A stretch of 23,160 nucleotides of DNA, from positions 1-23,160 of IMG/VR virus record IMGVR_UViG_3300023174_000656; one strand, 5' to 3'. Under the pieces are notes generated by a model. That model had not been told where the DNA came from. It saw nothing but the letters and a program-made list of their open reading frames with translations, and searched no databases. This document shows positions 2,562 through 9,896 of the stretch, piece by piece (the stretch's first letter is position 1; every line of letters starts with the position of its first letter). A program made the translations under genes and the position numbers. The DNA comes from a virus.

Positions 2562-2573
2562 TAGGGGATTACC

Positions 2574-4046
2574 ATGAATGAAGAAGAAAAAGCCGCACTC
2601 ATAAAAGAAGCCGAAGCTGAAGCCAACGCCTATTTAAAAGGCGCAAGGCCTACTGTTAACGCAGAACAAGGAGCGGAATATAAACTCCCAAAAGACATAG
2701 CCGATACCTATGCTGCTCTTAGAAAAGCTGAAGCTGCTTCCGAAAATCAACCTAGCAGTTTCATGCCTTCTCCTGAAACAGCGGCGTTAGCTGCGGCGGC
2801 GGCAGGAGCATACGCCCAGCACACCGGAAGGACGTTAGGAAACGGGCTGCTACGACCGGGCGAGGGCGTGTACTCTTCTTCCGCGCCCCCTGTTGCACCC
2901 CCTGCCGTGGCGCCTACCGCGCCCGCAGCTCCCGCTGGCCCAAGTCTGGTGGACACCCGTATCGCTCAGGTTACCGAACAACAGCGTTTGTTAGATGAAG
3001 CGCTGAATGCTAGGTTACGACAATTAACGGGTGACCCAAGGGCAAATTATGTTGGATTTTCGCCAGAACAAATAGACCGCCTTTTTAATGGTGGAAATTC
3101 CGATACTCTCAATACTCCAGGTGTTTCGCGTGAATTTACACACAACGATGAGACTTCTCGAAAAGCGGACGTTACCAGCTTAAACCGAGAAAGGCTTGGT
3201 TCAGCGGGATTAGACCCCCGAGCCGCCGTGGAGCAGGCTGGGCCTTTAGTTACGTTGGCCAATAGCCGCATAGCGGTTCCTCCCCACGTAGCCGTTGACC
3301 TGAACCAAAGCAGGCAAACAGCCGCCGCCGCAGAAGCGGAACGGCTGCGGCAGGAGCATGCGCGCCAAACGCAACTGAACCAATCCACACTTGCGGCATT
3401 GAATGCCAAAAGGCAAGCAGACGCCGCAGCCGCAGAGCGCTCTGCTGCCGCCAAAGCGGTAGCCGATGAAAATGCCGCAATACAGGCTCGCTTAGCCGCA
3501 GAAAGAAGCCAGAGAAATGCGGGACTAAGGGCTGGTGCTGGAAAGGTTGCTTTAGGCGGCCTTGGGGGCCTAGAAACAGGCGCCCAAGCCGTAAACATGT
3601 ACAACAACTACCTCGCGGGCGTTAAACCAGACTGGACAGAAAAGCTTAGCCTTGCCGGGGGATTGGCGTCCATGTTTGGAAACAGGCCTTTTGGTATTGC
3701 AGGCCAAGTAGCCCAAATTCCATATGCTATTTCTAAAGGAAATTTAGGCGGTGCCGCCGCGAATGCTGCGGTATCTGCGCTACCTATCCCCGTGCAACTT
3801 GGGATGTACGCCCCCGAGGCGTCAGCGCCAACGGTTACTTCCGAAAGCTATCCGCCTGAAATTAAAACTAACTTGAGCAAAATGGCGAAAGCGCTATCTC
3901 CCGAAGACTATGCCCGAATGCGTGCTTCATATTTAACCAATGTATCTCGTTATGGCCAAACCCCTACCGATGAAGAAAAACTACTCGGCGTAATTCGTTC
4001 TGGACAAAGGGGCGGGGTAGACCCCAACACCCTTCTCCGAAATTAA
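2574..4046 (+). CDS. Probable virion-associated protein, Ala-rich coiled coil, 490 aa
   Basis: Family not recognised. N-terminal Lys/Glu/Ala-rich helices (1-70) lead to a Pro/Ala-rich linker (about 100-125). A long Ala/Glu/Arg coiled coil (about 245-315) precedes a Gly/Ala-rich segment with hydrophobic stretches (about 320-410) that could contact membrane, and then a polar tail. The order of coiled coil followed by Gly/Ala-rich hydrophobic part is common in phage ejection and tail-tip proteins, so a role in DNA delivery is an inference. The ATG follows the previous stop by 12 nt with a GGGGAT ribosome binding site. Codon use is AT-rich like the upstream gene. The gene ends exactly where a tiny opposite-strand ORF ends (stops at 4044-4046 and 4047-4049), so there is no room for a bidirectional terminator. 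Confidence 0.55.
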   Translation: MNEEEKAALIKEAEAEANAYLKGARPTVNAEQGAEYKLPKDIADTYAALRKAEAASENQPSSFMPSPETAALAAAAAGAYAQHTGRTLGNGLLRPGEGVYSSSAPPVAPPAVAPTAPAAPAGPSLVDTRIAQVTEQQRLLDEALNARLRQLTGDPRANYVGFSPEQIDRLFNGGNSDTLNTPGVSREFTHNDETSRKADVTSLNRERLGSAGLDPRAAVEQAGPLVTLANSRIAVPPHVAVDLNQSRQTAAAAEAERLRQEHARQTQLNQSTLAALNAKRQADAAAAERSAAAKAVADENAAIQARLAAERSQRNAGLRAGAGKVALGGLGGLETGAQAVNMYNNYLAGVKPDWTEKLSLAGGLASMFGNRPFGIAGQVAQIPYAISKGNLGGAAANAAVSALPIPVQLGMYAPEASAPTVTSESYPPEIKTNLSKMAKALSPEDYARMRASYLTNVSRYGQTPTDEEKLLGVIRSGQRGGVDPNTLLRN

Positions 4047-4736: not shown

Positions 4737-6111
4737 TTTTCTTCTTCCTTTTCTTCATGGAGTCCAGCAATATGTCCTGCACCCTGCGCTTGGTTGTGAG
4801 CCGCTCCAGCACCAGCTCGTCCACGGTGTCCCTGGCGATGATCCGGTGGATGAAGACCGGACGGTCGTACCCGGCCTGCAACTGGCGCGTCGGCCCGATC
4901 CGCTCAATGATCTGCAGGTGCTCCTCAAGGTTCCAATTCGGTGAGAAGAACACCAAGATGTTACCGCCGTCCTGCAAGTTCAGGCCATGGCCCGCGCTTG
5001 CCGGATGCGCGAACAACACCGGTATCCTGCCCGCGTTCCAGTCCTTGATTGTGCCGGGGTTTTTGTCCAAGTGCCGCCCCTGCGGGAAGGCCTTGAGCAG
5101 CCGCTCCAAGTCGCTCTTGAAGTTGTAGGCCACCAGCACCGGCATGCCCGCCGCCTCCTCAATGACCGACTCCAAGGCCTCCAGCTTGGCCTTGTGGGTC
5201 TCGGTCCAGTTCTTGCGGGTGTCGTCGGTGTAGGCCGCGCCAGCGGCGAGTTGCAGGCATTTGATGGTCTTGGCCGCCGCGTTGAAGGCCTCCACCTCGA
5301 TGCCTTCCAGCTCGGTGTACATCTCCTTCTCCATGTCCTGGTAGTGCTTGCGCGCCTTGGGCGGCAGGTCCACCATGATGTCGTTGACGATGGGCTCGTG
5401 CAGGTCGAACCAGTCCTTGGCCTCGATGGTCAGGCACACATCCCGCAGCCGGTCTTGTATGTCGGTCTGGGCCGAGGCCGTGGGCGTCAGGCTGAACCCG
5501 TCGTAGCCCTGCTGGAACCAGCGCTGGCTGAACGCCGTATACGTGCGGCCCAGCCGGGCGCCCGCATCGATGAACCACGCCTGCCCCCACAGATCCTTCA
5601 GGCCGTTGCTGGCCGGTGTGCCGGTCAGCTCAATCAGCCGCTTGATGTGGGTGTGGGCGATGCTGCCCAGCGCCTGGGCGCGCTTGGTGCCTTGGCGTAG
5701 CCTGAAGTTCTTGACCTTGGTGGACTCGTCAAGCACCACGGTCCGGTACGGCCACTTGTCGCCCCAATAATCCGTGAGCCAAACGATCTGTTCAAAATTG
5801 GTCACATACAATTGCGAAGGCGTCTTAATAGCCGCAATGCGCTCTTTCTCGGTGCCGGTGATCACAGACACGTTCATGCCGCGCAGATGGTTCCATTTCA
5901 GCACCTCGTTGGGCCATGTGTCGTTGGCTACCCGTAGGGGCGCTATAACTAATACCGGGCCATCCTCAACCATCTGGAGGGTATCTATGGCCGTCAGAGT
6001 CGCCACGGTCTTGCCGGTACCCATACCGGCCCATATCGCGCACCGCGGAGTGTCGATGATGTGGTCGATGATCATGCCCTGGTAGGGGCGGGGCGTGAAC
6101 TCAGACCTCAT
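4729..6111 (-). CDS. SNF2-type DEAD/DEAH helicase (superfamily 2 ATPase), 460 aa
   Basis: A phage superfamily 2 DNA translocase/helicase. Motifs in order: Q-like RPYQ (8-11), Walker A GMGTGKT (29-35), motif Ia APLRV (57-61), Walker B LDES (127-130), motif III LTGTP (162-166), motif V SAGHGLNLQ (372-380) and motif VI QIIERIGPTRQ (400-410). The length is normal for the compact phage members of this group, which lack accessory domains. The start overlaps the VRR-NUC stop as ATGA, so the two are translationally coupled; the pairing of a SNF2 helicase with VRR-NUC is common in phage replication operons and suggests joint action on branched DNA or recombination intermediates. The C-terminus is a basic KKRKKK tail whose A-rich codons double as the ribosome binding site of the next gene. 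Confidence 0.92.
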   Translation of the reverse strand: MRSEFTPRPYQGMIIDHIIDTPRCAIWAGMGTGKTVATLTAIDTLQMVEDGPVLVIAPLRVANDTWPNEVLKWNHLRGMNVSVITGTEKERIAAIKTPSQLYVTNFEQIVWLTDYWGDKWPYRTVVLDESTKVKNFRLRQGTKRAQALGSIAHTHIKRLIELTGTPASNGLKDLWGQAWFIDAGARLGRTYTAFSQRWFQQGYDGFSLTPTASAQTDIQDRLRDVCLTIEAKDWFDLHEPIVNDIMVDLPPKARKHYQDMEKEMYTELEGIEVEAFNAAAKTIKCLQLAAGAAYTDDTRKNWTETHKAKLEALESVIEEAAGMPVLVAYNFKSDLERLLKAFPQGRHLDKNPGTIKDWNAGRIPVLFAHPASAGHGLNLQDGGNILVFFSPNWNLEEHLQIIERIGPTRQLQAGYDRPVFIHRIIARDTVDELVLERLTTKRRVQDILLDSMKKRKKKNG

Positions 6112-6383
6112 GCCAGCAGCGCGTCAACGCCCTCCAAGCTGTTGATCACCACCACGCGCTGGCCCACGGCCCGCATGCGCGTGTGCTCGCGGAGCTGGTG
6201 CGGCTCGGGAACCTTGCCGAGGGCCTTGAGCTCCACCCAGATGGTGCCGTGTTCATAGTATGGTGGCAGCATCACCAGCCGGTCGGGCGCGCCGTTGCGC
6301 CCGATCCACTTGACCTTGCGGACCTCGCCGCCCATCTCCTTGACCTTCTTCACAAGGTACTTCTCGATGTCTGACTCTCTCAT
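6108..6383 (-). CDS. VRR-NUC domain nuclease, 91 aa
   Basis: A stand-alone VRR-NUC endonuclease of the PD-(D/E)XK superfamily, whose members cut branched or flap DNA structures. The catalytic signature is complete: GAPDR at 31-35 (metal-binding D34), ELK at 51-53 (E51, K53) and Q63 in the following helix. The N-terminal helix MRESDIEKYLVKKVKEMGG is typical. At 91 residues it is a minimal single-domain member. ATG 6383 has AGGAAC upstream. It begins 9 nt after the end of the Mom-like gene and overlaps the helicase start by 4 nt. It probably resolves replication or recombination intermediates together with the helicase. Confidence 0.92.
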   Translation of the reverse strand: MRESDIEKYLVKKVKEMGGEVRKVKWIGRNGAPDRLVMLPPYYEHGTIWVELKALGKVPEPHQLREHTRMRAVGQRVVVINSLEGVDALLA

Positions 6384-6391
6384 TTTTGTTC

Positions 6392-6959
6392 CTATGCTAA
6401 ATGCAACACATACTTATGCTTGTAAAAAGAGCCCACTTTTATATGACCCAGATTTTCCATCTGTTGTTTTGTTCTGTTTACCGTGGCTTTATTCGCAACT
6501 TGTTTTCCTTCTTTAGTAAGCCATCTTGGATATGGGCCTGTTCTCCCTACATATGTCCAATTGGCTGCTGCGTACACACCACCTGTATGATTTTGGCTTT
6601 CATCGGCATAGGTAACTAACGATACAAATCTTTTTTCTTTTTTTTATTATTTTTATGCTTTTTGACAAAAGAAAAGAGCATGCGTTTTTTGGAGTGTCTG
6701 GACGCATAACCATCCGCGTTAGAGACAACACTTTTTTCCAGTTATCTTTATTTACCGATTCGCAAGCAACTCTGGTAGGTGGCAGCCACCACACTACGCC
6801 AAATAACTCATCTGTATATTTAAGATACAGCCCATGGAGGTATACCCCCGTGTTAGAAGCACCTTTGGCATAGTGGTATTGCTCCACTAAAACACGTGCA
6901 TCGGGTATTGGTACTGGTCTTACCTCCCAATCCTCTGCATGAAGCGGGTATCCTTCCAT
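6392..6959 (-). CDS. mom: Mom-like adenine modification protein (GNAT fold), frameshifted
   Basis: Related to phage Mu Mom, a GNAT-fold enzyme that converts adenines in phage DNA to a carbamoylmethyl form and so blocks host restriction. The N-terminal part reads from 6959 (119 codons to a stop at 6600-6602) and has QYHYAKGASNTGVY (27-40), FGVVWWLPP (53-61), LTRMVMRPDTPKNACSF (80-96) and a Ser/Lys/Ile helix. The conserved C-terminal part (VTYADESQNHTGG, then VYAAANWTYVG) continues in the next frame to 6392. The shift lies in the A-tract 6645-6631 (eight A, G, six A). Removing one A, or a +1 or -2 shift, gives a 188-residue protein of normal architecture. The gene is clearly more AT-rich than the polymerase gene next to it, which suggests transfer. 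It could be a dead gene, a sequencing error, or expressed by slippage. Confidence 0.8.
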
Positions 6960-6962
6960 TTC

Positions 6963-9896
6963 CTACCCCTTCCTGTATCGGTATGTTTCAAAACCCGCTG
7001 CAGCCAGCGGGATGTCGGGCGCCCAAGCGGGGTTGGCCGCCAGCAGGCTGGCCAGGTGCTTGGCGTTGTACTGCGGCTCGTCTGGTGCCTCCGCAATAAT
7101 TTCATCATGCACAGTGAGCACAATCTGGTAGCCCGCCGCCTCAATCAGGGGCATGTTGGCCGCCATGATGTCGCGCGCCACGGCTTGGGAACAATTTTCA
7201 AACAGCTTGCCCCCGTGTGTATGTATGCGCGTCCACTTCCGAGTGTACTGGTCGATGCCCATGTACGTGATCTTGTCGCCGTCCTCAATCTTGGGTGACG
7301 GGTAGCACATGGCCCGGCCCGAGGGCAGCCCGAGCACCAGCCAGTTCTTGCTGGCCCGCACCTTCAGGCCTAGCTCGTTGAAGGTGGTGCCTCGGTTAAG
7401 CAATGCCTTGATCACCAGATCCTTGAGCGCGGCCCAGTAGTTGGTGATGTTGGGGTGGGCGTCGCGCCACATGCGCTTCAGGACGTCACAGGCCACGAAG
7501 GCGTCCTCGGACAGCCCGTACATGGGCCGCTTGTCCTTCTTGGTCCAGCCCAAAAACTTGTCGGCCTTGGCCACCACGTCATCGGGCGCATCCAGAAGCA
7601 CCTTGTCGGCCAGGTCGTCCAAGTTGATGCCATAGGCCCCCGCAAACGTCGCAAACGCGCCCACGCCGCCCTCGTAGCCGCAGTTGTGTACCAACAGTGG
7701 TCCCCGATTTGTAATCACTGTAAACCGATTATTCGGGCCGCTGTTCAAGATGTCGAATACGGGCCTCAAGGTCAAATATTCGTTGTTGCATTTCCCTAAC
7801 GGTGCGTTTGTTCCCTCCTCGGTTTTCTCCCAAGGGTATAAACCGCAAATTACCCGGTTCGTAACCTTTATTGACGTCAATACGATCCATGTCAAAAGAG
7901 GGCTTATCCCAACCTTCCAGGGTGACAACGTACTGCAAAAATGCGGCTTTGTCTTTCCGCCATAGCGGCCAGACATGAATCCCCCGGCCACCATACGAGG
8001 GGTACTGTTTGCTAGTAGTGTTGTGACACCGGTTGTTGCATGCTGATAGCCTGTTGAGTAAGCGCCTGCGGTGGTCATCATCTGGGCAGGCATCGGCATA
8101 TTTGAAAAAGCTCTTACGCCAATGACCAGCTTGTTTTTTAGCGCAACGGTTGCAGCGCGTACTGGCTCCTTTACGCAAGTTGTACCCAAATACCAAATGT
8201 GGTTCTGCGCCGCACGCACACTGAACCCGAACCATGTCCTGCTTGTTTGCGCCGGTACTGCGGCGCTCAATACCCAAGACGGTAAGTTCTCCGAACCTGT
8301 CTCCAATGCCCGGCAAAGGATGTTTTCGTTCAAAGCGAGTTGCTGCGCCTGCGTCCAAGTTGTCCCGGTTCTGATCAAATGATCCGGCGTTACTTCTATA
8401 CCGGCGAGGTTTAACGTCGCCCGAAAACCCTTCGGTATCAATCCCTGATGTTGAACCCATTGCTTTCCGTCCCATAGCAAATCCTCCGTAGTAACTGAAT
8501 GTAGTAATTTTATACCATTGTTGGTTAATACGGGGGTATACGCCCCAAAACAGGCCAGCTCCATCACCTTGCCGCGTTGGCGTAATTCGTCATTCACTTG
8601 TTCGGCTTTTATACCAAAAGCCTTCGCGTAGGCCAGCTTGTACAGGTCAGGGCCCACCTTGGCGTCGAAGTCGCGGAAGGCTTGGAGCTTCCATTCCTCG
8701 TTGGCCAGCCAGCTCTGCACGCGGCCCTCGATGTTGGACAGGTCGGCCACCACCAGTTTCTTGCCAGTGGGCGCCACGATGCAGCTACGGATCGCCGAAC
8801 TCACCAGCTCCATGACGTTGTCGGTCGTCAGGTGCGCGCACCCAGCGCGCAGCGCCTCAATTCCCGCGTCGATCGCCTTCTGCTTGAGCGTGGGCCTGGG
8901 CAGGTTCTGGGGCTGGAACAACCGCCCCGCCCAGCGCCCCGTGCGGGTGGCGCCGCAGAACTGCAACAGCCCACGCAGGCGCCCGTCCGCACTGGTGCCC
9001 CGCATCAGCACGCGGTACTTGGCCGTGCTGGTGCTGCTGGCCTGTAGCCGGATCAGCAGCAGCTCGCGCATATCGGGGTTCAGGTCAAGCGTGGCCAGTG
9101 CCTTCTCAATCGTGGCCATCTGCAGGTCGGGCAGGTCAATGCCGAAGGCCTCAAACAGGTGCAGCCGGAAGACCTCGTTCAGGGTGGCACTGGCCACGCT
9201 GCCGTCGGTCAGCGCCTGCGTGCGCCCAGCCAGCTCGCGCTTGGCCCGGTCAATGGCCTCAATAGCCGAGTACACCAGACCAAGGTCAATGGCCACGCCC
9301 CGGTCGTTAATGCGCTGGTCGAGCTGCCACAGCTCGCGCTCGGCGGGCGTGAAGTTGATCATGGGCATGCGCTTCTTGATCTCCCGCATGGCCTCTACGT
9401 CAGCGGCGGCGTAGGCCTTGAAGCGCTCCCAGTCCTCTGGGTGCGTCTCGCGGGTGGCGCGGTCGAGCTTGCGGTTCTTGCCCAACGGCTTGGTGAAGAG
9501 CTGGATCAGCCGCTTGCCGTCCTTGTCCTTGGCCTTGTCGGAAGGCAGTCCCAGCACCTCGCAGAGCATGCCCAAGCTGCCGGGCAGGCTGTGGGCCATG
9601 GCCTGGACCATGGTGTCGTGTATGCGGCTGGTGGGGATGTCAATGCCCCAGACGTGCCGGATCACCGTGCGGTCGAAATGGGAGTTGTGGATCACCACCT
9701 CGACGTCGGGGTCGTTGAAACCCGCCACGACGTGCCAGGGCAGTACATGGGGTAGTGTGAAGTCGGTCACCTGCACCGGGGCATCGTCCCATGCCCATGC
9801 CGCGAGCAGTATCTCTGCATTCGCAGCATAGGCATGGGTGCCATGGGTAATCGGTGTCTTGGAGAATGTCTCCAAGTCGAGGTAAAGCGTTCGCAT
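6963..9896 (-). CDS. polA: DNA polymerase I (family A) with 3'-5' exonuclease and in-frame intein, 977 aa precursor
   Basis: The replicative phage polymerase. Exonuclease motifs: LDLET with D7/E9, IHNSHFD with N71/D75, and YAAAD with Y162/D166. Polymerase motifs: TGRWAGRLFQPQNLPR (319-334), motif A ADLSNIEGR (384-392, catalytic D385), motif B RGKVMELA-CGYEGG split by the intein, and motif C TVHDE (928-932, catalytic D931). There is no 5'-3' exonuclease domain, as usual in phage enzymes. The position equivalent to E. coli Phe762 is Leu447. An intein occupies residues 449-738; after splicing the enzyme is 687 aa. No good Shine-Dalgarno precedes ATG 9896, but the exonuclease motif begins at residue 6, so the start is secure. 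It sits in the early operon after the SSB gene. Its activity depends on intein splicing because motif B is incomplete without it. Confidence 0.95.
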   Translation of the reverse strand: MRTLYLDLETFSKTPITHGTHAYAANAEILLAAWAWDDAPVQVTDFTLPHVLPWHVVAGFNDPDVEVVIHNSHFDRTVIRHVWGIDIPTSRIHDTMVQAMAHSLPGSLGMLCEVLGLPSDKAKDKDGKRLIQLFTKPLGKNRKLDRATRETHPEDWERFKAYAAADVEAMREIKKRMPMINFTPAERELWQLDQRINDRGVAIDLGLVYSAIEAIDRAKRELAGRTQALTDGSVASATLNEVFRLHLFEAFGIDLPDLQMATIEKALATLDLNPDMRELLLIRLQASSTSTAKYRVLMRGTSADGRLRGLLQFCGATRTGRWAGRLFQPQNLPRPTLKQKAIDAGIEALRAGCAHLTTDNVMELVSSAIRSCIVAPTGKKLVVADLSNIEGRVQSWLANEEWKLQAFRDFDAKVGPDLYKLAYAKAFGIKAEQVNDELRQRGKVMELACFGAYTPVLTNNGIKLLHSVTTEDLLWDGKQWVQHQGLIPKGFRATLNLAGIEVTPDHLIRTGTTWTQAQQLALNENILCRALETGSENLPSWVLSAAVPAQTSRTWFGFSVRAAQNHIWYLGTTCVKEPVRAATVALKNKLVIGVRAFSNMPMPAQMMTTAGAYSTGYQHATTGVTTLLANSTPRMVAGGFMSGRYGGKTKPHFCSTLSPWKVGISPLLTWIVLTSIKVTNRVICGLYPWEKTEEGTNAPLGKCNNEYLTLRPVFDILNSGPNNRFTVITNRGPLLVHNCGYEGGVGAFATFAGAYGINLDDLADKVLLDAPDDVVAKADKFLGWTKKDKRPMYGLSEDAFVACDVLKRMWRDAHPNITNYWAALKDLVIKALLNRGTTFNELGLKVRASKNWLVLGLPSGRAMCYPSPKIEDGDKITYMGIDQYTRKWTRIHTHGGKLFENCSQAVARDIMAANMPLIEAAGYQIVLTVHDEIIAEAPDEPQYNAKHLASLLAANPAWAPDIPLAAAGFETYRYRKG
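7683..8552 (-). mobile_element. Intein in DNA polymerase A, 290 aa, inserted in motif B
   Basis: A protein-splicing element, read in the polymerase frame. Block A starts at Cys449 (CFGAYTPVLTNNG), an N2-like block is DLLWDGKQWV (472-481), and block B is GIEVTPDHLIRTG (499-511) with the expected Thr503 and His506. Block F is VFDILNSGPNNRFTV (713-727) and block G is GPLLVHN ending at Asn738 with penultimate His737. The first residue of the downstream extein is Cys739. All residues needed for Cys-type splicing are therefore present. The splicing parts total about 120 residues (449-528 and about 700-738). The 170 residues between them match no endonuclease in this frame; the DNA there encodes an HNH enzyme in another frame. 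A group I intron is unlikely because both junctions and the whole insert stay in frame. Confidence 0.93.
7729..8475 (-). CDS. HNH homing endonuclease nested out of frame inside the polA intein, 248 aa
   Basis: Probable homing endonuclease of the intein, translated separately from a frame offset from polA on the same strand. ATG 8475 has a strong ribosome binding site (GGAGG, 7 nt spacing). The conserved part starts with GDRFGELTVLG (58-68), the usual beginning of this phage HNH family. A zinc finger follows with C86-x-C88 and C108-x2-C111, then NNRCHN (147-152), YGGRGI (161-166), and the nuclease core DMDRIDVNKGYEPGN (195-209) with GENRGGNKR (216-224). The first 55 residues overlie intein splicing blocks and resemble no family. 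The C-terminal 25 residues are a charged helix. It would cut intein-free polA alleles and promote homing; this is inferred from its location. A translation product of its own is likely but not proven. Confidence 0.88.
   Translation of the reverse strand: MGRKAMGSTSGIDTEGFSGDVKPRRYRSNAGSFDQNRDNLDAGAATRFERKHPLPGIGDRFGELTVLGIERRSTGANKQDMVRVQCACGAEPHLVFGYNLRKGASTRCNRCAKKQAGHWRKSFFKYADACPDDDHRRRLLNRLSACNNRCHNTTSKQYPSYGGRGIHVWPLWRKDKAAFLQYVVTLEGWDKPSFDMDRIDVNKGYEPGNLRFIPLGENRGGNKRTVREMQQRIFDLEARIRHLEQRPE

Follow-up and report, generated by a model that had tools for sequence, protein, structure and literature searches.

The minus strand of viral record IMGVR_UViG_3300023174_000656 carries a Mom-family (PF25680) gene that is split over two reading frames, and this locus raises the question of whether the split is a genetic switch, a recent loss of the gene or an error in the sequence. 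The gene is at positions 6959–6392 of the window, i.e., the whole stretch of 23,160 nt that was analysed. The N-terminal half is in frame 0 (positions 6600–6959, minus strand); it starts with an ATG at 6959 and ends with a TGA at 6600 after 119 codons, and a truncated product is expected from it. The C-terminal half (positions 6392–6630, minus strand; FVSLVTYADESQNHTGG...HLA, with a TAG stop at 6392) is in a frame that is offset from that of the N half by +1 (or -2). The site of the frame change is the tract AAAAAAAAGAAAAAA (positions 6631–6645, minus strand), which consists of eight A residues (6645–6638), a G and six A residues (6636–6631). Other frames around the tract have many stops. The run of eight A residues is the longest homopolymer within the window; another A run, of seven residues, is at 1651–1657. 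When the gene was shuffled by a first-order Markov model, about 20% of the shuffles also had a run of eight, which by itself is unremarkable in so A-rich a gene. The tract segment is rich in lysine and arginine in most homologues, so an A run is expected in an AT-rich version of it. What is notable is that the frame breaks between two halves that are both conserved, and not the run of eight.

Both halves are recognised as Mom sequences. The N half matches positions 1–105 of the PF25680 profile (2.8e-16, 60.2 bits) and the C half matches positions 102–184 (1.1e-09, 38.8 bits); PHROG 1384, annotated as 'Mom-like', also matches both. A read-through chain of 188 residues, joined across the tract at AAGA, reaches 105.8 bits (3e-30); the score of an intact relative is slightly lower, at 101.7 bits. 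The curated PF25680 cut-off of 27.1 bits is exceeded by both halves and by the read-through chain. A first-pass annotation had described a Mom-like gene whose halves lie in frames differing by +1 or -2, with the change falling at the A tract. The profile and PHROG matches confirm the first point and the ORF coordinates the second, and the position of the change at 6645–6631 stands as well.

A GNAT-like fold such as that of phage Mu Mom is displayed by an AlphaFold model of the intact relative, which was modelled in place of the window copy (mean pLDDT 82). The top match of this model in the PDB is Mu Mom itself (8bv8; Foldseek E of 6e-10, TM of 0.66–0.68 by query). The window gene and Mu Mom thus share a family by profile and by fold, but identity in the structural match is only about 20% and the window copy is out of frame. 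Among the genes identified here there was no com-like translational activator. Mu Mom is a phage DNA modifier that protects from restriction (PMC6483171), and by analogy the window gene may have had a similar DNA-modification (anti-restriction) role. It does not have the single uninterrupted frame of a Mom-family gene, and because of this interruption it represents, as sequenced, a broken member of the family and not a working one.

The closest relative is record IMGVR_UViG_3300034106_001615 (L001, L003, L014 and L071), the contig of which is colinear with the window across the replication genes and the terminase. Its mom gene is found at the same site, between a polymerase gene and a VRR-NUC-like gene, and has 76% aa identity to the window gene (75–80% over the two halves). 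Unlike the window gene, it encodes 188 residues in one open frame and has no A tract. All nine homologous loci from a first search, and all 35 from wider viral and genome searches with which these overlap, are single-frame and free of stops. The longest A run in the tract zone of the 35 loci is six, and none has a run of seven or more. Among the homologues found, the run of eight and the frame break are private to the window record. The first-pass annotation had suggested slippage or phase variation at the tract, and had named tract conservation among homologues as a check, and homologues with disrupted conserved residues and extra stops as evidence to the contrary. No homologue with extra stops was found, but a conserved switch is not borne out, as the tract and the frame change are absent from every homologue.

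An exact pattern scan of the viral collection gave no near-identical records around the tract, and no isolated phage was matched by tblastn with the N half alone. When the mom gene of the intact relative was used as a query, 241 phage records gave only distant Mom proteins with less than 60% identity. An apparent frame change in the second match of locus L024 was rejected, as it is actually a separate, adjoining Mom paralogue; this locus, on the same contig as L007, has two different Mom homologues next to each other (positions 211–930 and 1016–1564).

The window gene is immediately downstream of the gene for a family A DNA polymerase (positions 6963–9896, minus strand), which contains an intein-like insert in frame, and immediately upstream of a small endonuclease or Holliday-junction-resolvase-like gene, termed VRR-NUC-like (positions 6108–6383, minus strand). 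The G+C content of mom is 41%, compared with 61–64% in its neighbours. A mom gene is present between the polymerase and VRR-NUC-like genes in one of the 47 relatives that hold both, L071, which is the L001 contig. In 15 relatives the polymerase gene directly abuts the VRR-NUC-like gene with no mom, the two being a few bases apart (as TGATATG). Three of these mom-free relatives (L049, L100 and L090) have a polymerase end that is 92–95% identical in nt sequence to that of the window. The low G+C content, the single occupancy among 47 relatives and the direct abutment in 15 indicate that mom is cargo. Longer polymerase/VRR-NUC-like junctions are found in some other relatives; the distance between the two genes (positions 6383–6963 in the window; L049 to L100) varies among relatives between a few bases and 1.7 kb. 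The junction is likely a cargo site. A different Mom-like gene (29% identical) is located between the VRR-NUC-like gene and a helicase gene in the close relatives L050 (positions 3318–4004) and L051, which implies that Mom-type genes have entered the replication module more than once. As all the homologues found are intact and have no run of eight, the break most likely reflects either a loss that is very recent or a slip in sequencing, and not a conserved genetic switch.

The polymerase gene has features of its own. The intein-like insert (positions 7683–8552, minus strand) is 290 codons in length and in frame; it is present in L052 and is absent from L100, L049 and others. An HNH endonuclease ORF of 248 codons (positions 7729–8475, minus strand) is inside the insert but in a different frame. 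A comparison of the window and L052 inserts shows that variation in the centre falls on the third positions of HNH-frame codons, and that the edges follow the polymerase frame. This pattern of variation suggests that the insert may represent a nested homing endonuclease in an overlapping frame. In L090 (positions 2570–3480) the polymerase gene is interrupted elsewhere by a different intein-like segment, the ends of which are 36–47% similar.

The preservation of the two mom halves bears on the age of the break. The C half retains all 37 of the residues that are invariant among close homologues and has no extra stop, and no invariant column is broken in the N half. This agrees with the earlier claim that both halves keep conserved Mom residues and that any loss must be recent. 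In a simulation, six neutral substitutions in the 240 nt of the C half spoil the intact state with a probability of 96%, which indicates that the break is young. When changes in the C half were polarised with L004, one lineage-specific aa change was assigned to the window and seven to L003, with eight unassignable. The differences between the window and L003 at codon positions 1, 2 and 3 of this half number 14, 8 and 41. Together with the aa changes, this shows that selection on the C half has not been relaxed, and it follows that the break is recent, artefactual or decoded. On these sequence comparisons the frame change is probably a recent one.

Purifying selection until the present fits a gene decoded by slippage equally well. 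Here the frame would be changed at the A tract in some transcripts or by some ribosomes to give a low level of full-length Mom, or tract length would vary as a form of phase variation. The continued selection on the C half is in keeping with this explanation, and bacterial A tracts are known slippage sites (PMC1088944). T7-type polymerase slips strongly and readily, with insertion favoured on A as well (PMC6260861). However, restoration of the mom frame needs the loss of one A (or the gain of two), and in tests with E. coli RNA polymerase the A runs examined gave no rescue by deletion and little insertion (PMC6260861). A single-subunit (T7-type) RNA polymerase gave no match in the window or the relative, in a search where controls gave no match either. 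A/T runs are commonly selected against once they reach nine residues (PMC1088944), whereas the mom run has eight. The arguments from these two studies come from systems other than the host of this phage, and would apply to it by analogy.

Other properties of the tract also argue against decoding, which overall is unlikely. The tract is missing from all 35 homologous loci. No stimulatory RNA structure was found downstream of it, the fold being not unusual (z of 0.17) and there being no Rfam match. A -1 ribosomal shift at the in-frame A_AAA_AAG was rejected, because the -1 frame stops within a few codons. There are known cases where indels are rescued by slippage at A/T runs, e.g., in Buchnera, Blochmannia, IS elements and Citrobacter tssM. 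As in these genes, the break in mom is at an A run and the downstream part is kept, but the mom tract is not conserved, its run is just eight and the deletion direction is needed. A more specific proposal, that a newly acquired anti-restriction gene is held low or bet-hedged by transcript slippage or by length variation of the run of eight, is more doubtful still, and the results here give the switch idea no positive support. Were mixed tract lengths to be present in reads, the phage would be tuning a DNA modifier by means of a homopolymer.

The main rival to a real loss is that the consensus length is wrong in the longest homopolymer of the window and that mom is intact in the phage. The sole frame break in conserved genes coincides with this homopolymer, A runs are sites of sequencing and assembly slips too, and the unrelaxed selection on mom and the lack of a second lesion are consistent with such an error. 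Yet the contig is otherwise clean: the other conserved window genes display no comparable frame break relative to their counterparts, and the few unpaired gaps are near alignment or gene ends and break no window ORF. In addition, eight A residues are a short run for short-read consensus errors. An error at this site is a tentative possibility, more credible than decoding by slippage, but the frame change is probably present in the real DNA.

Conservation of sequence in both halves could also be explained if each were made as its own chain and the two came together as an active enzyme. In the C frame, however, the first usual start codon is the GTG at 6577, beyond the conserved TYADESQNH block, and a scan revealed no start-like codon at the tract. 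Mom homologues are all single-chain, and a two-chain enzyme is highly improbable.

The favoured explanation, with a probability of roughly 0.55, is that mom is an accessory gene that was acquired and whose frame was very recently broken by a real mutation. Horizontal transfer would have placed it, as a single-gene cassette, between the DNA polymerase and VRR-NUC-like genes. A length change of one base in the A run, within the lysine-rich segment, would then have broken the frame very recently. The product as sequenced would be a stub of 119 residues from which the C-terminal strands and the TYADESQNH block, itself strongly conserved, are missing, and this stub is presumably inactive. No second Mom-like gene able to replace the broken copy was found in the window. 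In the phage variant seen here, both the Mom enzyme and its modification are thus most likely off. If so, the variant would be fit only in hosts that lack the matching restriction, and the anti-restriction gene is most likely dispensable here. As it stands, mom would represent anti-restriction cargo that was gained and then promptly lost at a junction of the replication module.
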